From Bacillus multifaciens (GTDB lineage Bacteria; Bacillota; Bacilli; Bacillales; Bacillaceae_G), in NCBI RefSeq assembly GCF_030756675.1, contig NZ_JAVBXD010000006.1:62001-126000 (forward strand): a stretch of 64,000 bases of DNA, given 5' to 3'. The notes beneath the pieces were generated by a model. That model saw only the letters and a program-made list of their open reading frames with translations. It was not told the DNA's origin and did no database searches. This document shows, in pieces, positions 27,423 through 62,807 of the stretch (its first letter is position 1; the number at the start of each line of letters is the position of its first letter). Position numbers and translations under genes: made by a program.

Positions 27423-27723
27423 TTATTCTTTTCAATTCTAATATTAACTTAAAGCAAATTTCTTTATATGATTGTCGAAAAATATTTATCTGAATTTTCT
27501 ATTAATTTTAAAGGATTTTTCGAAACATAATGCGAAACCATTGTATAACCTTTTTTATCAAAGGATTGCTTTATACATATTTATTAGGAACGGGACGAAT
27601 TTTGAAAGCGCTTTTCTTAAATAGCCATTTATTTCTATAAGAAAATCCTTGCAATATATTCAGAAAATCATTACAATTGCCATATATTAAAAATCATAGT
27701 AATAGAAAAATCCTCATCAATCC
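27423..27723. other. Intergenic stretch without recognisable gene
   Basis: AT-rich spacer between the VOC gene and the lysine riboswitch. It must contain the riboswitch promoter; no clear coding frame or hairpin was seen. Confidence 0.5.
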
Positions 27724-27940
27724 GATGAGGTAGAGGTTGCGACTTTTATTAGTAATCTAGACGAGACGCGGAGAACGTCAATAACTCTAGCTGAAAGGAA
27801 AAGTTGCCGAAGTTTATACTTCTTCTCTGGAAGTATATGCTGGGGCTGTTTTCGAATAGGAACAGAACTGTCACGTTTACAAAATTACCGTGTAAACGTG
27901 GGGCGCTATCTTAACGGAAGGTATGATGGGGTGGCTATTT
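27724..27940 (+). ncRNA. Lysine riboswitch (L-box)
   Basis: Leader RNA with the conserved L-box blocks in order: GATGAGGTAGAGGTTGC, GGAGAACGTCA, CTGAAAGGAAAAGTTGCCGA, TCTGGAAGTATATGCTGGGG, CAGAACTGTCAC, TAACGGAAGG and GGGGTGGCTATTTTT. These pair into the five-helix lysine aptamer. A terminator hairpin follows, so lysine binding should end transcription before the permease gene. Confidence 0.93.
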
Positions 27941-27950
27941 TTGAATTGCT

Positions 27951-27977
27951 CCGCTAAAGTCCTTTGGCGGTTTTTTT
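27951..27977 (+). terminator. Riboswitch terminator
   Basis: CCGCTAAAG / CTTTGGCGG with T7 tail, the expression platform of the lysine riboswitch. Confidence 0.88.
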
Positions 27978-28023
27978 AATTCCCCCCGCTCCTTCCTATC
28001 TTACTAGAAAAGGAGTGTTGAAC

Positions 28024-29493
28024 ATGAACGGCGCAACTACTAACGTTACCTCTACAGCTACAAATCAATCTGCTCAATCAAATAATGAACTACGACGCGG
28101 ATTGAAATCTCGCCATCTTACAATGATCTCTCTTGGTGGTACAATTGGAACAGGTTTATTCCTAGCAAGCGGTGGTGTTGTCCACACAGCTGGTCCTGGT
28201 GGTGCACTCGTCGCCTATGCTGCAATTGGTATTATGGTATATTTTTTAATGACAAGCTTAGCTGAATTAGCATCCTACATGCCTGTAGCAGGATCATTTA
28301 GCACCTATGCAACCAGATTTGTTGATCCATCGCTTGGATTTGCATTAGGTTGGAACTACTGGTATAACTGGGCCATTACCATTGCTGCTGAACTCTCTGC
28401 AGTCACATTAATTATGAAGTTTTGGTTTCCAAATACACCTTCCCTACTTTGGAGTGGAATTTGTTTAGCTATTATGTTCCTTTTAAACTATTTATCTGTT
28501 AAAGGCTTTGGGGAAGCGGAATATTGGTTTGCACTTATTAAAGTTGTAACTGTTATTGCCTTTTTAATCGTCGGATTTCTTATGATTTTCGGTATTATGG
28601 GCGGAGAGCCTGTTGGTTTTAAAAACTTCACAGTTGCAGATGCACCGTTTAACGGCGGCTTCATGGCAATCATCGGTGTGTTTATGGCAGCTGGATTCTC
28701 GTTCCAAGGAACAGAATTATTAGGAGTTGCGGCTGGTGAAACTGAAGATCCACAGCGCAACATTCCAAAAGCAATTCGCAGCATCTTTTGGCGAATTCTA
28801 TTGTTCTATATTTTTGCGATTCTCGTAATTGGCTTATTAATCCCGTATACAAACGAAAACCTTGCAGCAAGCGATGTAACAGTAAGTCCATTTACACTTA
28901 TATTCGATAAAGCAGGCATTGCCTTTGCAGCATCAGTAATGAACGCCGTTATTTTAACAGCTGTTTTATCCGCTGGTAACTCTGGTATGTATGCATCAGC
29001 ACGTATGCTTTGGGATTTAGCAAACCAAGGCAAAGCACCGAAGTTTTTAGGAAAATTAAATAGTCGCGGTGTACCAGTAAATGCGTTGCTTGCAACATCA
29101 TTAGTTGGATCTGCTGCTTTCTTAGCTTCTTTATTCGGTGATGGCGTTGTCTATGTGTGGCTATTAAATGCCTCTGGTATGTCAGGTTTCATCGCTTGGA
29201 TCGGAATTGCCATTAGTCACTATCGTTTCCGCAAAGCATACATTGCACAAGGAAAAGACTTAAATGACTTACCTTATAAAGCAAAATGGTTCCCATTCGG
29301 CCCTATCTTTGCATTTGTATTATGCTTAATCGTTGTCCTTGGTCAGAACTACGGTGCATTTATGGGAGAATCTATTGATTGGAACGGTGTACTCGTTTCG
29401 TATATAGGCTTACCTCTTTTCTTAATACTTTGGTTAGGTTATAAATTTACAAAGAAAACAAAAGTAATCCCATTAGATAAATGTGAGCTTTAA
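28024..29493 (+). CDS. lysP: Lysine-specific amino acid permease
   Basis: 489-residue APC-superfamily permease with about twelve membrane helices. The first helix carries SLGGTIGTGLFLASGG, and helix 6-8 carries FQGTELLGVAAGETEDPQRN, both typical of AAT/LysP-type permeases. The lysine riboswitch directly upstream makes lysine the probable substrate. I start at ATG 28024 (GGAGTG upstream) because the longer frame would begin inside the riboswitch terminator. A hairpin follows the stop. Confidence 0.92.
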   Translation: MNGATTNVTSTATNQSAQSNNELRRGLKSRHLTMISLGGTIGTGLFLASGGVVHTAGPGGALVAYAAIGIMVYFLMTSLAELASYMPVAGSFSTYATRFVDPSLGFALGWNYWYNWAITIAAELSAVTLIMKFWFPNTPSLLWSGICLAIMFLLNYLSVKGFGEAEYWFALIKVVTVIAFLIVGFLMIFGIMGGEPVGFKNFTVADAPFNGGFMAIIGVFMAAGFSFQGTELLGVAAGETEDPQRNIPKAIRSIFWRILLFYIFAILVIGLLIPYTNENLAASDVTVSPFTLIFDKAGIAFAASVMNAVILTAVLSAGNSGMYASARMLWDLANQGKAPKFLGKLNSRGVPVNALLATSLVGSAAFLASLFGDGVVYVWLLNASGMSGFIAWIGIAISHYRFRKAYIAQGKDLNDLPYKAKWFPFGPIFAFVLCLIVVLGQNYGAFMGESIDWNGVLVSYIGLPLFLILWLGYKFTKKTKVIPLDKCEL

Positions 29494-37015: not shown

Positions 37016-38212
37016 TCACTTTTTCCCATTCTCAAACTCTTGTTTAATGTTTGCTAACAATGATTCCTCTGTTATTAACCGATAAGCAGTTAGTGCTAGT
37101 GCTTTTGCTCCAACGATTAATGCTTCATCTCCTCTTTCAGATCGTGCCGCTTCTCGAAATGCGTCTGTATGTGCAACTAAATCATCACTACCAATTTTAA
37201 TGTAAGGATGAATTGTCGGGATGATTTGACTAACGTTTCCAGCGTCGGTAGAACCAATGCCAATTCGTTCATCACGATGAACATTTTCTCCTAATTCTTC
37301 TAGTTCTTCAGCCACTATCGCATTAAATGCTTGGTTAATTACTAAGTTATCAATCTCATTTTGAAATTGTTCAATCTTTACTGTTGTACCGGTCGCAAGC
37401 GCAGCTCCTTGTGCGATGTTACGAATCTTTTCTGTAATTTCTGTGCATCGTTCTCTCGTTTTTGCTCGAATAAAGAAGCGAGCAGATGCGTAATCTGGAA
37501 TAATATTTGGTGCTTTTCCACCGTCTGTAATGATGCCATGAATACGCACGTCTGTTGGCAACTGCTGACGAAGTGCATTGATACTATTAAATAATTGTAA
37601 AACAGCGTCTAGTGCATTTATTCCCGCTTCTGGTGAGGCAGCAGCATGAGCTGATTTTCCGTAAAAATGAAAATCTAGCGGATCTAATGCAAGAGATGGA
37701 CTAGTTGTTGCTGTTTTACCACTCGGATGGATCATAAGTGCTGCATCAATATCTTTAAACAAGCCTGCTTTTACATAGCTTCCTTTAGCACTTCCGTTCG
37801 GTCCTCCTTCTTCTGCCGGTGTACCAAACACAACAATTTCTCCGCCAATTTCTTCAATTACCTCTGATAAAGCAATTGCCGCAGCTGTACTAATTGTTCC
37901 AATTAAATTATGTCCACAGGCATGACCTAAACCTGGAAGTGCATCATATTCTGCTAAAAAAGCAATTGTAGGCCCTTTCTTTCCAGAGCTTTTTCTCGCA
38001 ATAAAACCCGTTTCATGGCCAGCGATATGATGTTGAAGTTGAAAGCCCGCACTTCCAAGTAATAAACTAAGCGTTTTAGATGCAAAAAACTCTTGGTTTC
38101 CAATTTCGGGATTCTCATGAATTGTATGACTCGTTTTTATGTAACGCTCTCTTTTCTCCTCAACACTTTGCACAATTTTATTTCGATGCGCAGTAATTTG
38201 TAAAACTTCCAT
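37016..38212 (-). CDS. M20 family amidohydrolase/aminoacylase under SAM riboswitch control
   Basis: 398-residue zinc amidohydrolase of the M20D type. Metal-site segments: LPGLGHACGHNLIG near 103, PAEEGGPNGSAKGSY near 135, MIHPSGKT near 165, and FHFYGKSAHAAASPEAG at the dimerisation lid. Such enzymes hydrolyse N-acyl amino acids. The S-box RNA directly upstream links expression to S-adenosylmethionine shortage, so a substrate such as an N-acyl-methionine or -cysteine derivative is a reasonable inference. Confidence 0.92.
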   Translation of the reverse strand: MEVLQITAHRNKIVQSVEEKRERYIKTSHTIHENPEIGNQEFFASKTLSLLLGSAGFQLQHHIAGHETGFIARKSSGKKGPTIAFLAEYDALPGLGHACGHNLIGTISTAAAIALSEVIEEIGGEIVVFGTPAEEGGPNGSAKGSYVKAGLFKDIDAALMIHPSGKTATTSPSLALDPLDFHFYGKSAHAAASPEAGINALDAVLQLFNSINALRQQLPTDVRIHGIITDGGKAPNIIPDYASARFFIRAKTRERCTEITEKIRNIAQGAALATGTTVKIEQFQNEIDNLVINQAFNAIVAEELEELGENVHRDERIGIGSTDAGNVSQIIPTIHPYIKIGSDDLVAHTDAFREAARSERGDEALIVGAKALALTAYRLITEESLLANIKQEFENGKK

Positions 38213-38277: not shown

Positions 38278-38310
38278 AGTATACACATTACATATACTTA
38301 TGCCATCTTT

Positions 38311-38411
38311 CTTATCTTTCAAGCCTTACACTTGCTGGAATTGGCACAGTATTCATAATGAATCCGCTGCCGAGGCTTCAAAGGGCCAGTCCCTCCACCT
38401 CTCATGATAAG
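38311..38411 (-). ncRNA. SAM-I riboswitch (S-box)
   Basis: Minus-strand leader with CTTATC...GATAAG as P1 and, in order, GAGAGGTGGAGGGACTGGCC, CTTTGAAGCCTCGGCAGCGG and GTGCCAATTCCAGCAAG, the invariant S-box blocks. A terminator follows, giving transcriptional repression at high SAM. Confidence 0.95.
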
Positions 38412-38490
38412 AAATTTCAAGTATTCATATAGGATTAATTTTTAAATTATTTTCATTCTAATTTTATTATAAACAAAAGTCAAGAAAATT

Positions 38491-54602: not shown

Positions 54603-54893
54603 TTATTTTACTATATAATAAACTCCCTTATCATCTATACATTTATGTTGCTCTGCTAAAGTAATTTTCCCATCTAATTTTAGTTCATCTAGCAGTCGCA
54701 ATAAATAAAATTGCTGCAGCATTTTCTTCGCAAATTCCCCTTCATGTTCAGTAGTAATATGTTGTTGAATATCCAATAATGTAATCGGTTCTTCCTTCTC
54801 TTCCATATAATTATAAATTGCATTACGTAGTGTAATATATTTCTCGAGTGTCACAGTATGCTTGCTCCCTTCTTCTCGTTGTCCATTTTTCAT
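54603..54893 (-). CDS. Hypothetical small protein under SAM riboswitch control
   Basis: 96 residues. A helical, winged-helix-like pattern is visible: LEKYITLRNAIYNYMEEKEE, ITLLDIQQHITTEHEGEF, LYLLRLLDELKLDGKI-like and GVYYIVK at the end. This could be a small DNA- or RNA-binding protein, but no recognised family. The S-box leader ending 19 bases upstream makes it a member of the methionine/SAM regulon. Possible starts are the ATG 54893 and internal ones; no clear ribosome site is visible before 54893, apart from the terminator itself. Confidence 0.7.
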   Translation of the reverse strand: MKNGQREEGSKHTVTLEKYITLRNAIYNYMEEKEEPITLLDIQQHITTEHEGEFAKKMLQQFYLLRLLDELKLDGKITLAEQHKCIDDKGVYYIVK

Positions 54894-54937: not shown

Positions 54938-54956
54938 CGGATTATATCTCTTCCTT

Positions 54957-55052
54957 CTTATCTGTCAGAACAAAACTGTTCTGCTGGAATTAGCACCTGC
55001 ATAGCGGTTGCTGGGTTTCATCGGGCCAGTCCCTCCACCTCTCTGGATAAGA
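54957..55052 (-). ncRNA. SAM-I riboswitch (S-box)
   Basis: Minus strand: CTTATCCAGAGAGGTGGAGG, GACTGGCCCGATGAAACCCA, GCAACCGCTATGCAGGTGCT, AATTCCAGCAGAAC, closing GATAAG. All S-box core elements (P1, kink-turn, GGC-AACC pseudoknot pieces) are present. Terminator follows. Confidence 0.95.
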
Positions 55053-55147
55053 AAATATTCACTTTATCTATTACTATAATGAGTACAAACTAAAAAGTCA
55101 ATTCTTATAAGAATAATCAGGATTTATTTTTATTCGTTAGCTTAATA

Positions 55148-56481: not shown

Positions 56482-56809
56482 ATTTTACATCCCCTTCTTG
56501 GTTATAGTGTAATACGTTACAACTATTATTAGTGAGAATTTTCTCCCTACGCTAATTCATTTCACTTTATTACCATCAGTATATAAAAAATCTGATTCCG
56601 CCAACATCCCTCTGTTGTATGTACTTATATCTATCAATGTCATACCAAAGTATGACAGATTATCCAAATAAAGAAGACACCTCTTACAAGATGTAAGAAG
56701 TGTCTCAAAAGGCAAACGAATATGTAAGTCGCGATCCTACTGTATATATGTATGACTTCCAATAAAAATTTATTCATTATTTACGTACGAAAGAATTTAT
56801 GGTATTTCC
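56482..56809. other. Intergenic stretch, one hairpin
   Basis: No gene seen. AGACACCTCTTACA / TGTAAGAAGTGTCT at 56675-56705 (one mismatch) forms a hairpin, likely the terminator of the ECF transporter operon, about 105 bases past its last stop. The VOC promoter must lie at the left end. Confidence 0.6.
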
Positions 56810-57496
56810 TTAATCTAAAATACCATACTTCCTCTTAAAACGTGTCAATATTTTAAGCCAAGATGTACTAAACATCCATAAAAAAAAGACATTAGAAAGT
56901 GCATGCGCCAAATCAAAATAAAAGCTTGTAATATATGCTTTTATAAAAGTATCCCATGTTACGTCTTTCAAAAAGCCAATGAGGAACCATAAATTCATAA
57001 TCCAGTTAAAAGCAAATCCTGCGATTAAGCCAAAGAGAACTCTTCCCCATAATGTTTTCATCATCCACGTATGCCGCAATAGCCCTGCCGAAAATCCCAT
57101 CATACCCCAGCAAAACATTTGCCACGGTGTCCAAGGTCCTTGTCCTAAAAATATATTAGAAACAAGGGCAGCTGTTGCACCAATAAGGAAACCAGCCTCA
57201 CCGCCAAATACAATGGCTGATACGATAATCACAAATGATGTTGGTTGTACACTTGGAATGATGGAAAACGGAACACGGCTAATCGCGGCAATTGCCGCTA
57301 GTACAGCTACAAGTACAATTTCACGTGAAACAAACGCTTTTCTTTCAAAACGCACATAAAATGGGAGCATAATTACAATTAAAAAGAAGAGACTGCACCA
57401 TATGTAGTATTGATCTGTTACAAAAGAAGTAAATAAAAGTGTACTAATCAATACGAACAAAACGGCTAAAACGATACACGCATATCTTTTGGACAC
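56810..57496 (-). CDS. ECF transporter S component (substrate-binding), cobalamin-type candidate
   Basis: 228-residue integral membrane protein with about six helices. The stretch ISRVPFSIIPSVQPTSFVII and the loop FLGQGPWTPWQMFCWGMMGF are typical of vitamin S components, the latter seen in CbrT/CblT-like cobalamin or precursor transporters as far as I recall. It captures the ligand in the membrane and docks on the T and ATPase subunits. It begins (GTG 57494-57496) 31 bases inside the 3' end of the ATPase gene. Last gene of the operon. Ligand is inferred from the DUF4430 partners. Confidence 0.82.
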   Translation of the reverse strand: MSKRYACIVLAVLFVLISTLLFTSFVTDQYYIWCSLFFLIVIMLPFYVRFERKAFVSREIVLVAVLAAIAAISRVPFSIIPSVQPTSFVIIVSAIVFGGEAGFLIGATAALVSNIFLGQGPWTPWQMFCWGMMGFSAGLLRHTWMMKTLWGRVLFGLIAGFAFNWIMNLWFLIGFLKDVTWDTFIKAYITSFYFDLAHALSNVFFLWMFSTSWLKILTRFKRKYGILD

Positions 57497-59124
57497 GCCT
57501 CAAACACATCCTCCCACGTTAAAGCATACGGCAATTGTTTGCGAATAAACCGATTAATAGATGTTGTATAAAAAAAGTTCTCGCTAAAAAAACGTGCCGG
57601 CGTTTCTTCCATGATAATCTTCCCGTCAAATAACATCATACAGTTATCCACGTATTTTGCTGCAAATTCAATATCATGCGTCGCCATAACAATTGTCGTT
57701 CCTTCTCTTTGTAATTGCTGAAACAAATTCCCCAGTTCTTCTTTCTTTCCTGGATCTAGTCCCTTTGTCGGTTCATCTAATAATAATAGATTTGGCTTTG
57801 ATAATAACACTGTACAAAGAGCAATTAATTGCTGTTCCCCGCCGCTACAATCATGCGGATGACGATTGCGAATATGGAAGATTGAAAAATTCCGAAGTAT
57901 TTCTTCTACTTTTTCATTTGCTTCCCCTTTATATAATTCTTCTGCACGGCTAAGCAACTCGTTCCAAACAGTATCATGGGTAAAATGATAGTAAGGATAC
58001 TGCGATACATAACCGATTTTTCGGAAGCGTTCTTTCGCTTCCACTTTATGAATGAGCTTTCCTTCCCAAACTACTTTTCCTCTGCGACACTTTTGCAATC
58101 CTGCTAAAAGCGCTAATAGCGTTGATTTTCCAGTACCATTTTTTCCAACAAGCGCTGTCCATTGTCCTTGTTTAACATTCAACGCCAAATCCTGCAAAAT
58201 GAATGGTCCATGCTTTTCATATTGAAATGAAACATGCTTTGCTTGTAGTAGTACATCCCTTTTTTCTAAATGCTGTAATGGTATGTCATACCGTAACTCA
58301 TTTAAAATAGGATACATTTGTTTCTGTGCATCACGAACGGTAAACGGGACATGGTCAGCCTTACACTCTAAAAACAATCGTGGAATTTGCGGAATATATG
58401 GACGAAATGCTTCTACTTTCCACATTTTTGGAATCACTTCTGTTGGTTTTCCATCATAAACAATCGTTCCTTCATCCATAAAAACAATTCGATCAGCAAG
58501 AGGAATCACTTCGTCTAAACGATGTTCGCTCATAATAATTGTAATTCCTAATTCTTCATGAATTCGTTTCAATAATCCTAAAAAGTCTTTTGCGGCAATT
58601 GGATCTAACTGTGCTGTCGGTTCATCTAATAACAACAATTTAGGTTGCAAAACAAGTATAGCAGCTAAATTTACAAGCTGCTTTTGCCCTCCAGATAACG
58701 TATGTACAGATTGATGCAACATATCTTGAAATCCTAAAAAGCTAATTAATTCAGCAATTCTTTTTTGAATGACAGTTGTTTCGTAGCCAACGTTTTCTAA
58801 CGAAAAAGCAAGTTCTTGAATTACCGTATCCATCACAAGCTGATTTTCTGGATTTTGAAATACCATACCAATTTCCTGAGCTGATAATAAATCTGGTATT
58901 GATTGCAGGGATGCTCCATCATAATACATGTTTCCTTTTCGTGTACCAATTGGGAGAAGTTCTTTTTTGAAATGTTTTAATAGCGTCGTCTTTCCACAAC
59001 CTGAGCGCCCTGCTAATACAACAAATTCTCCATGGGAAATCGATAAAGACACATTACATAAGGCAGCTGACTCTTCGTCTGTATATGTAAATGACAACTC
59101 TTTTATTTCTGCATGCGCCACCAT
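57466..59124 (-). CDS. ECF transporter double ATPase (EcfA-EcfA' fusion)
   Basis: 552 residues with two ABC ATPase halves. First: Walker A GRSGCGKTTLLKHF near 40, signature LSGGQKQLVNLA near 145, Walker B LLLLDEPTAQLDP, His switch SEHRLDE. Second: Walker A GKNGTGKSTLLA near 325, signature CSGGEQQLIALC near 430 (variant start), Walker B LLLLDEPTKGLDP, HD in ATHDIEF. A fused energy module of this kind, as in YkoD, replaces separate EcfA1/A2. Start at ATG 59124, five bases from GGGAG. Overlaps both neighbours. Confidence 0.93.
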   Translation of the reverse strand: MVAHAEIKELSFTYTDEESAALCNVSLSISHGEFVVLAGRSGCGKTTLLKHFKKELLPIGTRKGNMYYDGASLQSIPDLLSAQEIGMVFQNPENQLVMDTVIQELAFSLENVGYETTVIQKRIAELISFLGFQDMLHQSVHTLSGGQKQLVNLAAILVLQPKLLLLDEPTAQLDPIAAKDFLGLLKRIHEELGITIIMSEHRLDEVIPLADRIVFMDEGTIVYDGKPTEVIPKMWKVEAFRPYIPQIPRLFLECKADHVPFTVRDAQKQMYPILNELRYDIPLQHLEKRDVLLQAKHVSFQYEKHGPFILQDLALNVKQGQWTALVGKNGTGKSTLLALLAGLQKCRRGKVVWEGKLIHKVEAKERFRKIGYVSQYPYYHFTHDTVWNELLSRAEELYKGEANEKVEEILRNFSIFHIRNRHPHDCSGGEQQLIALCTVLLSKPNLLLLDEPTKGLDPGKKEELGNLFQQLQREGTTIVMATHDIEFAAKYVDNCMMLFDGKIIMEETPARFFSENFFYTTSINRFIRKQLPYALTWEDVFEACPKDMRVSF

Positions 59125-59981
59125 AACCACTCCCTTCCTTCTATTAAAATTGGTAGACTGATATACATCAGAAATGGAATGAAGACAATTACATCATTTC
59201 GCGCTAAAAAGAGCGATTCTACTTTTGGATAAATTGTTAAAATGCCATACCCCTTACTTACACCGAAAAGACAACATGCAAATAAAATGACGAACAAGCT
59301 AAGAATAAACCAATCTCTATGTCCCATACGATATCGAATATATGTACTTCGTTTTGTCACACCGAATCCACGCGCTTGCATCGAATCAGCCGTTTGCAGC
59401 GCTTCTTCTAATGAACAAACTAATAATACTTGTAAAAGCTTCATGCCATTACGTGCCCGGTCTTTCAAAGAACCTGCGTCCACTTGAACTCCCTTTGTTT
59501 TTTGTACAAGTGTAATATGAGTAAGACGCCTCATAAATAAAGGTACAAAGCGAACTGTAATCATCGTGAGCAATGCTACCTTCGGTGAAACACGAGAAAA
59601 TAAATATAAAAACTTATGACTCGATATCATCTCATTATAAGAAGTAAACGTAAACATAATGACAGCCAATGATAACGCCATTGTGTATCCATATGTTACA
59701 GCTTCTAAAGTAATTGGATTAAAACCAATATAAAATAAAATCGTACTGCCTCGATGCGTTAATAACGGATTGGCTATCGTAATAATAAAAGCGAAAAATA
59801 GTGAACTAGGTAACATTTTTCGCAATTTCGCTCCATTACCTTGCGTAATATTTAATATAAGGATCATACAAATTGCACCAATTAAAAAAACAGGATGAAG
59901 ACATACCATACATAGTACCATCACCCCTATATAATATAGAAAATTGATGAATGGATGCATTGAAGAAAATGCTAGTTTCAT
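59103..59981 (-). CDS. ECF transporter T component (EcfT-like)
   Basis: 292-residue membrane protein with about five to six helices. The cytoplasmic coupling motifs of EcfT are SLEEALQTADSMQARGFG (the A-R-G motif near 210), with a preceding region GSLKDRARNGMKLL. It couples the ATPase halves to the S component. Six bases after the lipoprotein gene and overlapping the ATPase gene by 22 bases (28 in the longer frame). Confidence 0.92.
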   Translation of the reverse strand: MKLAFSSMHPFINFLYYIGVMVLCMVCLHPVFLIGAICMILILNITQGNGAKLRKMLPSSLFFAFIITIANPLLTHRGSTILFYIGFNPITLEAVTYGYTMALSLAVIMFTFTSYNEMISSHKFLYLFSRVSPKVALLTMITVRFVPLFMRRLTHITLVQKTKGVQVDAGSLKDRARNGMKLLQVLLVCSLEEALQTADSMQARGFGVTKRSTYIRYRMGHRDWFILSLFVILFACCLFGVSKGYGILTIYPKVESLFLARNDVIVFIPFLMYISLPILIEGREWLWWRMQK

Positions 59982-59987
59982 TACCCT

Positions 59988-60719
59988 TTACCGATCTTCT
60001 TTCCTATAATCTAATGAATAAAACCATTCAATTTTATCACCTTGTTTCACTTTATAGCTACCTGCACCCTTATTCACAGCAACACCATTCACACGATACA
60101 TCCATCCGCTCCCGGCACCTTTAGATTTCTCGTATAAATTATTAATACCTTGAACATATACACCGCTTCCGGAACCTGTATAATCCATTTGAATTCCTTT
60201 TTTCTTCAATGTCCGGCCCAATACTTTAAAGACTGTATCTCCATCTTGAAGTTCTACTTCTGTTTCTCCCAAGATTGTACCTTGATCATCTCGTACTGAT
60301 AATGTAACTGTCTTTACTTCTGGTTTTGGCTTCGGTTGAGGTTCTGGGTTTGATTTCGGCTCAGGTTTCGGTTCAGGTGCAGGTACTGGATTTACTTGTG
60401 TTTGCTGTACATTTTCTTGTTTCTGTGTTTCTTTCGGTTCATTTACAACTTTAGATTGTTCTTTTTGATTTTGTGATGGTTCCGCAGCTTTTTCTTCTTT
60501 TTGTTTCTCTTCTTGTTTCTGTTCTTCAGCTGGCTTTTGTTCTTGCTTACTATCTTCTTGTTTTTGCTCTTCCTGTTTTTTCTCTTCTTGCTTCTTCTCT
60601 TCTTTTTTCTCTATTTGCTTTCCAGCAACTTTTGCGTCGGTTTTCACTTCATTTTGACTACATCCCGTAATAAAGCTAAAGGAGAAAACTAACAATACAA
60701 GCCATTTCATCATGTTCAT
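59988..60719 (-). CDS. Surface lipoprotein with DUF4430 (transcobalamin C-terminal-like) domain
   Basis: 243 residues. Lipoprotein signal with lipobox ITGC, so Cys20 would be lipidated. Residues about 30-145 are low-complexity, Lys/Glu/Gln-rich then Pro/Lys-rich, enough to span the wall. Residues about 150-243 are a DUF4430 domain: LSVRDDQGTILGETEVE, GDTVFKVLGRTLKK, GVYVQGINNLYEKSKGAGSGW and VKQGDKIEWFYS. DUF4430 is homologous to the ligand-capping domain of transcobalamin and intrinsic factor. It sits between the surface protein and EcfT genes, so it likely hands ligand to the ECF transporter. Start at ATG 60719, eight bases from AAGG. Confidence 0.88.
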   Translation of the reverse strand: MNMMKWLVLLVFSFSFITGCSQNEVKTDAKVAGKQIEKKEEKKQEEKKQEEQKQEDSKQEQKPAEEQKQEEKQKEEKAAEPSQNQKEQSKVVNEPKETQKQENVQQTQVNPVPAPEPKPEPKSNPEPQPKPKPEVKTVTLSVRDDQGTILGETEVELQDGDTVFKVLGRTLKKKGIQMDYTGSGSGVYVQGINNLYEKSKGAGSGWMYRVNGVAVNKGAGSYKVKQGDKIEWFYSLDYRKEDR

Positions 60720-60773
60720 CTTTCTCACACCTTTCATAATAAAATTAGGAGCAAATATTTGCTCCTAATTTTG

Positions 60774-62417
60774 TCAAGCCGCTTTTCTTCTCCATAATAC
60801 ATATGCACCGGTCATACATAATACACCTAGCGCAGCTGATGTAGCAATGTCTCCACCTGACATACCTGTCTCTGGTAAGTAACGATTTTCTACTTTTGTA
60901 TCTTTTTGTACAGATTGGTTTTCATCATTTACGGCAGAAGATTCACTTGTATTCTTTTGTGGTTCTTCTACTTTAGGCTGTTCATTTGTTGGTTGCTTTG
61001 ACTCGTCAGTTGGATTATTCCCTTCATTTGTTGACGTTTTTGTCCAATCATAAACAGAGCCTTTACCCGTTAAAAAGTTCTTATATTGCACAAGTGCTAA
61101 CATCGCTTGCTCCGTTGTCATGCCACTTTCTTCCGTATCAGCTGACAACCATTTAAACCCACCATTTTCTAATTGATAGGATAATAGATTTTGCACCGCA
61201 TTATAATTATTTTTTGTAAATGTAGCACTCGTTGGATCGATACCAGCTGCTGCAAGCCCAAGTATCGCTTGCGCTACACTGTTAGCATTTTCTACACCAC
61301 CAGATGAAAATCCACCTTTACCTGTTTGTGTACTAGCTAAATATTTCTTCGCTTTTTCTAACGCTTGTTTTACTTCTGCTTGATCTTGATATGGTGCTAA
61401 TGCCACAAGAGCCATTCCTGTTACATCAGCATCACCTGGTTCCTCTAAATTCCCCATATACGCCCAGCTACCGTCTGTATGTTGTAATTTTAAAATAGCA
61501 TTAATTAAGGCGTCACGATTCCATTTTGCATTCGCTGGCACTTCGTATTTTCTTGTATCTAACGCTATTAAACTAAAAATGTAATCTGTAATAGTTTCTG
61601 TTTTTTCAAAGTTATATAGCTTTGAAATTAAGTTATTATTAGCAATGTTTGTTGGATCTCCATTTACTGCTGTAACTGCTAAAATGGTACGTGCTAATTC
61701 AGTAGAAGAAAATTTATTTTCTTTTTCATCAATACGTTCTACTAACGATTGTAAATAACTTGACTTTGTATCTTTAGAAACTTCTTGGCCTGATTGAGTA
61801 AGTCCAATCATGACCCAGTCACCATCGATACCATCTTTCATCATCTTTTGGGCAGTTTTTGTAATCGCTTCATCCACTTTCTTTGTTACATCAACTTTTG
61901 TAGGTTCTTGTGGTTTTGGTACATCTGGCTTATCTGTATTTGGCTTTTCCGTATCAGGTTGTTTCTTACATGTACCAAGTTTATCTAACACTTGTTGCAA
62001 AGTTTCTTGACTCATATTGTTCCAATTAACAACATAGCGATACGCAACAACATCTCCAGCATTTAATTTATAGCTATCTGCCCCAACCATTGGTGATTGA
62101 TTATTTACCTCATATGTCCAGCCGCTTGTTGCACCAGCCATTAATCCATCAATACCTTTAATATATACACCATACTTTGTGTTTTCTGCCGTTACTTTAT
62201 TACCCATTTCTTTTTGCAGTAAACTATAGGCTGTATCTCCATCTTGAATTGCAACTTCTTTTGGACATAGCATAATTCCTTTTTGCGAATCTCCAACAAT
62301 TGCTAACGTTGCTGTATTCCCTTCAGCAAACGTAATATGTACAGTATTTGCAAAAGACAAGACAACCAATGCAACTGTCATAAATGACGTTACTAACCAC
62401 TTTTTCATATTCGTCAT
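60774..62417 (-). CDS. LPXTG cell-wall protein: DUF4430 plus terpene-cyclase-like alpha/alpha toroid
   Basis: 547 residues. Signal peptide 1-31 (cut after TFA). DUF4430 domain about 33-150 with DGDTAYSLLQKEMGNKVTAE, GVYIKGIDGL, SGWTYEVNNQSP and LNAGDVVAYRYV. Pro-rich linker about 155-180. Residues about 185-465 are helical repeats of the prenyltransferase/squalene-cyclase type (ILKLQHTDGSWAYMGNL, YLASTQTGKGGFSS, LLSYQLENGGFKWLSADTEE). A Ser/Asn/Glu-rich stalk leads to the sortase signal LPETG at 514-518, hydrophobic tail and RRKAA. Both folds occur in transcobalamin/intrinsic factor, in reverse order. First gene of the operon. Confidence 0.9.
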   Translation of the reverse strand: MTNMKKWLVTSFMTVALVVLSFANTVHITFAEGNTATLAIVGDSQKGIMLCPKEVAIQDGDTAYSLLQKEMGNKVTAENTKYGVYIKGIDGLMAGATSGWTYEVNNQSPMVGADSYKLNAGDVVAYRYVVNWNNMSQETLQQVLDKLGTCKKQPDTEKPNTDKPDVPKPQEPTKVDVTKKVDEAITKTAQKMMKDGIDGDWVMIGLTQSGQEVSKDTKSSYLQSLVERIDEKENKFSSTELARTILAVTAVNGDPTNIANNNLISKLYNFEKTETITDYIFSLIALDTRKYEVPANAKWNRDALINAILKLQHTDGSWAYMGNLEEPGDADVTGMALVALAPYQDQAEVKQALEKAKKYLASTQTGKGGFSSGGVENANSVAQAILGLAAAGIDPTSATFTKNNYNAVQNLLSYQLENGGFKWLSADTEESGMTTEQAMLALVQYKNFLTGKGSVYDWTKTSTNEGNNPTDESKQPTNEQPKVEEPQKNTSESSAVNDENQSVQKDTKVENRYLPETGMSGGDIATSAALGVLCMTGAYVLWRRKAA

Positions 62418-62807
62418 ACTGATGAATCATCCCCTCTCCTATAAATCACATAAAAAATACCCACAATGGCTGCTGCATAAACACGCAGCGAAACAAATAT
62501 TCAATAAGCGCTTTACATTTCTGTTGCTTCCTTTATATATATTAGGAAACAATAATGTTTTACATCATAGATTTTACGCTATTGCAAATCCATAATGTTA
62601 CAAAATTCTGTACTATTTTACTATTTATATATTTTTTTGTCTATGATTTCTCATATTTCCTTCTAAAGATTAATAGAATTTTTATACGGCTACTTGTGGG
62701 TATTCCCCCTCATGATTGTAAGAAATCCGATAAAGATAGACCTCGTAACAACTCAATAAGGAATGAAAAACATTAATACAAAATTCACTTTATCACCTTA
62801 TTTTATA
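62418..62807. promoter_or_regulatory. Upstream region of the ECF/DUF4430 operon
   Basis: 390 bases without a gene. Near the operon are GCTGC/GCAGC at 62470-62490 (hairpin), a weak cre-like core AATAAGCGCTTTAC at 62504-62517, and an inverted repeat TTGCTTCCT (62524-62532) / AGGAAACAA (62544-62552, one mismatch). I looked for the cobalamin riboswitch core and did not find it. The remaining 200 bases toward RraA are plain AT-rich sequence. Confidence 0.5.

Follow-up and report, generated by a model that had tools for sequence, protein, structure and literature searches.

A Putative Cobalamin-Scavenging Operon with a Wall-Anchored DUF4430 and Toroid Protein in Bacillus multifaciens

The window analyzed here is a stretch of 64,000 nucleotides from Bacillus multifaciens (contig NZ_JAVBXD010000006.1, positions 62,001 to 126,000 of the forward strand). 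Its minus strand carries a compact set of five genes which encode a sortase-anchored surface protein, a membrane lipoprotein and the three components of an energy-coupling factor (ECF) transporter. The operon probably constitutes a scavenging system for cobalamin (vitamin B12) and other corrinoids, in which capture at the cell wall is followed by a lipoprotein step and by ECF import. Regarding the substrate, a corrinoid is strongly supported by sequence comparison, because the S component is related to the cobalamin transporter CbrT, the DUF4430 domain is related to the vertebrate B12 carriers, homologous operons have cobalamin riboswitches, and a related operon on plasmid pMF1298-5 is found in a B12 context. 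An earlier note, made from the letters of the window alone, had already proposed a corrinoid, and the first three of these observations bear it out.

Organization of the Operon

The five open reading frames (ORFs; Table 1) had been taken in the earlier note as a single minus-strand operon with tight spacing or overlaps, and all of them were found in their place: from the surface gene to the S gene, the frames are separated by 36 and then 6 bases and afterwards overlap by 28 and 31 bases, as calculated from their coordinates. The description of a DUF4430 lipoprotein with a long linker and that of a complete ECF transporter, with a T component, a fused ATPase and an S component carrying a GQGPWTPWQM loop, agree equally well with the sequence and its Pfam matches; every position of this loop is either invariant or conserved in 90% or more of 26 aligned S proteins. 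For the surface protein, both the DUF4430 domain and the sorting signal had been recognized, but not the alpha/alpha toroid, which occupies most of the protein and is matched by the Pfam families Prenyltrans (E 6.1e-07, residues 274-421) and SQHop_cyclase_C. Neither promoter-like sites (17 in the operon region against a shuffle mean of 25.5) nor terminator-like sites (3 against 3.8) are in excess.

Table 1. Coordinates of the operon and of its associated features in the window.
Feature	Position	Strand	Description and basis
Surface protein gene	60774..62417	minus	547 aa ORF; signal peptide read from sequence, DUF4430, alpha/alpha toroid, linker, LPETG sorting signal
DUF4430 domain of LPXTG surface protein, residues 60-128	62034..62240	minus	Pfam E 1.3e-13
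Alpha/alpha toroid domain of surface protein, residues ~180-462	61032..61880	minus	Pfam and alignment of relatives
LPETG sortase motif, residues 514-518	60864..60878	minus	Sequence and motif search
DUF4430 lipoprotein gene	59988..60737	minus	249 aa; lipobox ITGC; long charged/proline-rich linker precedes domain
DUF4430 domain of lipoprotein, residues 166-240	60018..60242	minus	Pfam E 7.7e-22
ECF T component, CbiQ family, CbrV-like	59103..59981	minus	292 aa; CbiQ, Pfam E 6.8e-11
ECF ATPase, two fused nucleotide-binding domains, CbrU-like	57466..59130	minus	554 aa; two ABC_tran stretches (Pfam)
ECF S component, CbrT-like	56810..57496	minus	228 aa; ECF_trnsprt, Pfam E 4e-13
GQGPWTPWQM loop of S component	57116..57145	minus	Conserved across S family
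Terminator-like hairpin 3' of S gene	56674..56706	minus	Sequence prediction
Presumed 5' leader with no recognizable cobalamin aptamer	62418..62608	minus	Riboswitch, alignment and fold searches
Promoter-like site TAGACA-17-TAAAAT	62615..62643	minus	Within stretch aligning to the region upstream of a relative's riboswitch-controlled operon

The S Component and Its Relatives

The ECF families were reportedly named in a comparative-genomics study by Rodionov et al. in 2009. Among solved structures, CbrT is, by sequence, the only convincing relative of the S component of the window. A single-sequence search of the Protein Data Bank (PDB) matched CbrT (6fnp) with an E-value of 1.6e-14, and a profile of 26 S sequences improved it to 3.6e-23, the sole other chain at E<=1 being 4hzu (0.003). 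The earlier note had stated that its proposal would be contradicted if the S component belonged to a family known to take another substrate; the match to CbrT, with no other convincing one among solved structures, favors the proposal instead. A riboflavin S component, indicated by a match to PF07155, was rejected because the NCBIfam riboflavin model scores 22.3, under its cut-off of 99. Both cobalamin and cobinamide are reported to be imported by CbrT itself, with no competition from hemin (PMC5997447, Santos et al., 2018).

The plasmid pMF1298-5 (locus L116) encodes an S homologue 42.6% identical to that of the window. The genes of this operon are described under the names CbrV, CbrU, and CbrT, beside B12 salvage genes, and are tied to B12 turnover in the corresponding report (PMC6722938). 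In the plasmid record, a toroid protein gene and then a DUF4430 gene come directly after the S gene, and cobS is found near the operon, beyond a transposase gene. The toroid protein (L116:7647-8699) is annotated there as 'fucose-binding lectin II', although it is of the surface-receptor type according to a profile hidden Markov model (HMM; E 1.8e-27).

The DUF4430 and Toroid Domains

The alpha domain of the vertebrate B12 carriers has an alpha/alpha toroid fold, and the ligand sits between this toroid and the beta domain, which corresponds to DUF4430. With a profile built from 25 DUF4430 domains of surface proteins, the eight best PDB matches are all haptocorrin, transcobalamin-2 or intrinsic factor (E 1.2e-7 to 2.3e-3), headed by haptocorrin 4kki at 1.2e-7, and the matched domain is C-terminal in these carriers. 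The kinship between DUF4430 and the C-terminal domain of transcobalamin and intrinsic factor, stated in the earlier note, is recovered. Judged by its domains, the surface protein combines DUF4430 with an alpha/alpha toroid, the same kinds of fold as in intrinsic factor and transcobalamin but in reversed order. The analogy with intrinsic factor drawn in that note is strengthened by the toroid, but the toroid does not fall, by sequence, in the carrier family. Membership of the intrinsic-factor family is not claimed for this domain because its profile sits with cyclases and thioester-domain proteins, and it is not recognizable as a B12-carrier toroid; if the proposed mechanism is right, the protein would nonetheless act like a carrier of this family. 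Its N-terminal half alone gave no match in the PDB.

Conservation and Architecture Across Genomes

A scan of genome contigs with the S component as query yielded 45 loci from Paenibacillus, Desulfosporosinus, Latilactobacillus, Aneurinibacillus, Syntrophomonas, and others, in which toroid and DUF4430 ORFs were called with locally built HMMs; the same kind of scan with the LPXTG protein as query gave no relatives. A toroid-bearing ORF, a separate DUF4430-only ORF and the T, A and S genes occur together in 34 of the 45 loci. The full set is also present in 18 out of 20 regions fetched from genomes with strong surface-protein matches, and in these 18 complete regions the set starts with the gene of the toroid protein; the other two regions are L111 and L112. 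Given this recurrence, the grouping of the five genes is not due to chance. Among the other 11 of the 45 loci, the toroid gene alone is missing within the stretch examined in seven (L005, L006, L007, L010, L042, L043, and L045), toroid and DUF4430 are both absent in L018 and L033, L026 has DUF4430 and S only, and L044, of 3.1 kb, has only S.

Within one order, that of the genome G008 (a relative of Bacillus sp. EAC), surface-protein matches at E<=1e-3 were found in 98 of 397 genomes, some of them to DUF4430 only. Of 299 genomes sampled across the phylum of G008, 80 have a match to the S component at E<1e-20 and 126 have one at E<=1e-3. Fifteen phylum-wide regions were inspected as stretches of 10 to 13 kb, 11 of which had been chosen for long frames; toroid and DUF4430 ORFs lie near S in seven of them, and DUF4430 only in two. 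The ATPase and S are joined in one open frame of 794-1024 codons in ten of the 15 (L120-L128 and L130).

The architecture of the surface proteins is quite variable. DUF4430 followed by a toroid and an LPXTG-type end is found in the window and in L093-L096, while other proteins present two DUF4430 domains and a toroid, a toroid-DUF4430-toroid arrangement, a toroid only (L021, L022, L025, and L105), or as many as six DUF4430 domains with two toroids (L102). The window protein ends in an LPETG sorting signal, for which its relatives have LPDTA, LPNTA, LPNTS, LPNTG, LPLTA or LPQTG. In Latilactobacillus curvatus (L117), the wall protein has only the toroid and the membrane protein only DUF4430, and the two domains are likewise on separate proteins in pMF1298-5, which suggests that the two halves meet on the ligand. 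In L129 (2613-4826, minus strand), one frame of 737 codons combines an S component (match 32-225) with a toroid (283-558) and S-layer homology domains, and a hydrophobic segment (245-263) lies between S and the toroid. As it stands, this frame would place the toroid outside the cell, next to S. The product may be cut, since the hydrophobic segment resembles a signal sequence, and a sequencing error may have fused two neighboring genes.

With respect to cobalamin metabolism, the gene for CbiG, of de novo corrin synthesis, is present in five of 40 genomes with the surface protein and in seven of 20 without it (Fisher P 0.083), a difference which is suggestive only. The B12-binding domain PF02310 does not discriminate between these two groups (38 of 40 against 20 of 20). 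The sole two of the 60 genomes searched that lack PF02310, G145 and G117, carry reduced operons (L111 and L112, respectively) with a toroid, DUF4430 and a short S-like protein, with no T or ATPase gene, behind weak cobalamin riboswitch matches of 34 and 36.6 bits.

Cobalamin Riboswitches and the Window Leader

The operons homologous to that of the window are frequently preceded by a cobalamin riboswitch (RF00174). In the 40 best-scoring of the 98 genomes with a surface-protein match, all of them Bacillus-related, such a riboswitch is located upstream of the match and on the same strand in every case, at a distance of 101-3304 bases (median 570). These 40 genomes hold at least 100 cobalamin riboswitches, that is, 2.5 per genome of several megabases, so that chance placement is negligible. 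Thirty-four of the 45 contig loci were also scanned, in batches with 7/9, 3/10, 5/6, and 3/9 positive loci; 18 bear a cobalamin riboswitch, which lies upstream of the operon in 17 and after S in L018. Most of the scanned loci with no riboswitch end short on the 5' side. In Desulfosporosinus, two cobalamin riboswitches stand in tandem in L027 (982-1547) and two flank the S gene in L026 (7069-9069). Two weak matches were noticed after S in L124.

The leader of the window operon differs from these. No score of this leader against the aptamers of 20 relatives exceeds those of its 100 shuffles, and a search for B12-box-like sites that allowed up to three mismatches gave none. The region of the promoter-like site can be aligned to the sequence upstream of the L095 operon, with a score reached by none of 500 shuffles under strict gap costs and by six under loose ones, and the alignment stops within about ten bases of the start of the L095 aptamer. 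For the leader against other upstream regions, the shuffles of 500 reaching the score (strict/loose) were 8/4 for L093, 6/20 for L096, and 156/170 for L094. In the simplest reading of these alignments, the aptamer disappeared from the window lineage while the promoter was retained. If the organism of the window is B. cereus-like, such a loss would fit the report on B. cereus, according to which MetH is the single B12-dependent enzyme and MetE its B12-independent analogue (PMC6593275). The fold z-score of the leader (-1.98) is the basis of no claim.

Between 62418 and 62808, neither a catabolite-control site (up to one mismatch) nor a Fur-box-like site was detected; the window as a whole holds 14 Fur-box-like sites (up to three mismatches) against a shuffle mean of 14.25. 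Riboswitches noticed elsewhere in the window are two for S-adenosylmethionine (SAM) and one for lysine. The SAM riboswitches, both on the minus strand, lie at 54955-55053, 5' of a 96-aa ORF (54603-54893) with no Pfam match at E<=1e-5, and at 38309-38413, before an M20 peptidase gene (37016-38212). The lysine riboswitch is located at 27723-27916 on the plus strand, before a 509-aa ORF (27964-29493).

Proposed Mechanism and Alternatives

According to the proposed mechanism, the sortase-anchored protein with its toroid and DUF4430 domain would act at the wall surface like intrinsic factor and transcobalamin and capture a corrinoid there, and the ligand may be held between the two domains in a sandwich like that of the carriers. 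The membrane lipoprotein, in which the toroid half is missing and DUF4430 sits on a long linker, would receive the ligand or help to release it near the membrane, and would then hand it to the CbrT-like S component. S would bind the corrinoid, and the dedicated ECF module formed by the T component and the double ATPase would import it with ATP. A further proposal is that the DUF4430 half of the wall receptor is exchangeable with that of the lipoprotein, the corrinoid being passed by a swap of beta domains, and that the vertebrate carriers arose from this bacterial pair; it is offered as a tentative idea, more doubtful than the mechanism itself.

Several observations weigh against this interpretation. 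No RF00174 match above the Rfam threshold is present in the window, and none at E<=10 between 62400 and 62830. Control by such a riboswitch accompanies CbrTUV transporters but does not define them. Cobalamin riboswitches are also missing from L021, L022, and L045, despite at least 2 kb of visible upstream sequence, from both plasmid loci (L116 and L117) and upstream of all 14 phylum-wide loci scanned (the 15 minus L120), in which the stretches start about 4-8 kb 5' of S. The importer does not always have the receptor as its neighbor: six of the 15 phylum-wide regions have no toroid ORF and no DUF4430 ORF near S. With regard to the proteins, single-sequence PDB searches with the whole surface protein and with the DUF4430 domain of the lipoprotein gave no B12 carrier. 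The family Cobalamin_bind (PF01122) scores 19.6 bits on the surface protein, under its cut-off of 25, and is matched at E<=1e-3 in only one of 32 relatives, which is the window protein itself. The toroid profile is nearest to squalene-hopene cyclases and thioester-domain proteins in the PDB (best 3e-16). Finally, the domain order is reversed, since DUF4430 precedes the toroid in the window protein and is C-terminal in the carriers.

A bacterial receptor need not match the selectivity of intrinsic factor. In this sense, a variant of the scavenging interpretation is that the main import is not complete cobalamin but a corrinoid precursor, for instance cobinamide. The uptake of cobinamide by CbrT (PMC5997447) and the position of cobS near the pMF1298-5 operon both fit this variant, which is nonetheless considered unlikely.

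A different explanation is that the ECF transporter and the DUF4430 lipoprotein form a working B12 importer, and that the wall toroid protein does some other job under the same control, binding a wall polymer, another surface ligand or cells. This would account for L005, L006, L007, L010, and L043, in which importer, lipoprotein and cobalamin riboswitch are present with no toroid gene nearby (the rest of these genomes was not searched), and it agrees with the placement of the toroid, by sequence, in the broad superfamily of cyclases and thioester-domain (TED) proteins. Evidence against a separate role comes from the riboswitch upstream of the surface-protein match in all 40 selected genomes, the first position of the toroid gene in the 18 complete regions, the single frame shared by toroid and S in L129, and the combination of toroid and DUF4430, the same two domains that make up the known B12 carriers. 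This explanation is regarded as quite improbable.

Import of heme or another tetrapyrrole through an Isd-like surface relay has a precedent in LhaSTA of Staphylococcus lugdunensis, an ECF transporter reported to import heme and encoded within the isd operon (PMC7299338), and a window with no cobalamin riboswitch would fit it. This reading was rejected, since no NEAT domain is among the Pfam matches at E<=1e-3 and the upstream region lacks a Fur-box-like site; the match of S to CbrT, for which hemin is no competitor, and the cobalamin riboswitches of the homologous operons make it very improbable as well. DxDD is the catalytic motif of squalene-hopene cyclase, and a secreted terpene cyclase or prenyltransferase, suggested by the Prenyltrans and SQHop_cyclase_C matches and by the best PDB matches of the toroid profile, is dismissed almost entirely, because this motif is absent from all 32 toroid relatives and a wall anchor with a DUF4430 domain would make an enzyme of membrane lipids implausible. 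Residue D331 of the toroid, which falls in the DxDD region, is invariant in the 32 aligned relatives.

Significance and Comparison with Known Systems

The relation of the operon to B12 is held with high confidence. The statement in the earlier note that no description of this arrangement is known was too strong: the ECF part corresponds to the known CbrTUV, and a proteomics table already lists an 'Additional lipoprotein component of putative cobalamin ECF transporter' (PMC9963975). The importer had been predicted before, and the surface receptor is apparently undescribed; searches of open-licence PubMed Central text found no description of a DUF4430/toroid surface receptor for B12, and an earlier mention is possible. 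Capture of B12 outside the Gram-positive membrane seems to be little described, as the CbrT papers, in the text available, treat the membrane transporter and surface capture has been worked out for Bacteroides. A defined receptor would bear on the competition for B12 in many habitats, given the S component in 80 of 299 genomes and the surface-protein matches in 98 of 397. If the interpretation is true, Gram-positive bacteria possess a counterpart of intrinsic factor, a receptor with toroid and DUF4430 displayed on the wall, which would be a prokaryotic parallel to, and possibly a source of, the two folds paired in intrinsic factor and transcobalamin. The meaning of DUF4430 becomes directly testable.

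The Isd heme relay of Gram-positive bacteria comprises a wall-anchored receptor, a membrane lipoprotein and an importer in one locus. The window operon resembles it in having these three elements at a single locus, and differs in that Isd features NEAT domains, heme, and Fur control, whereas neither NEAT domains nor an upstream Fur-like site was found here. A likeness also exists to BtuG and BtuB of Bacteroides, in which a surface-exposed B12-binding protein serves an uptake system; nonetheless, BtuG is a Bacteroidetes lipoprotein which works with the outer-membrane BtuB, and the available text of that report describes no DUF4430/toroid pair (PMC6143338).

Among ECF systems, ECF-CbrT or CbrTUV is the closest one: the S component is homologous to CbrT, T and ATPase partners are encoded and a corrinoid is the expected substrate. 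In Lactobacillus delbrueckii, CbrT and FolT2 share one ECF module (Santos et al., 2018; PMC5997447), while the window operon is dedicated, with a T component and a fused double ATPase of its own and a pair of DUF4430 proteins outside the membrane; the word 'lipoprotein', one of which the window operon encodes, does not occur in the main text of that paper. The proteomics annotation mentioned above similarly links a lipoprotein to a cobalamin ECF system, and the same source places a DUF4430 gene adjoining rtpR (PMC9963975). That annotation is a name alone, whose protein presumably carries DUF4430, and a surface toroid protein does not figure in the available part of the source. Finally, the surface protein resembles intrinsic factor, transcobalamin, and haptocorrin in its DUF4430 and alpha/alpha toroid domains, with a corrinoid as the expected ligand. 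In contrast to these vertebrate carriers, it is wall-anchored, has its domains in reversed order and bears a toroid which is not PF01122, and its relatives often repeat the domains, up to six DUF4430 and two toroids in a single protein.

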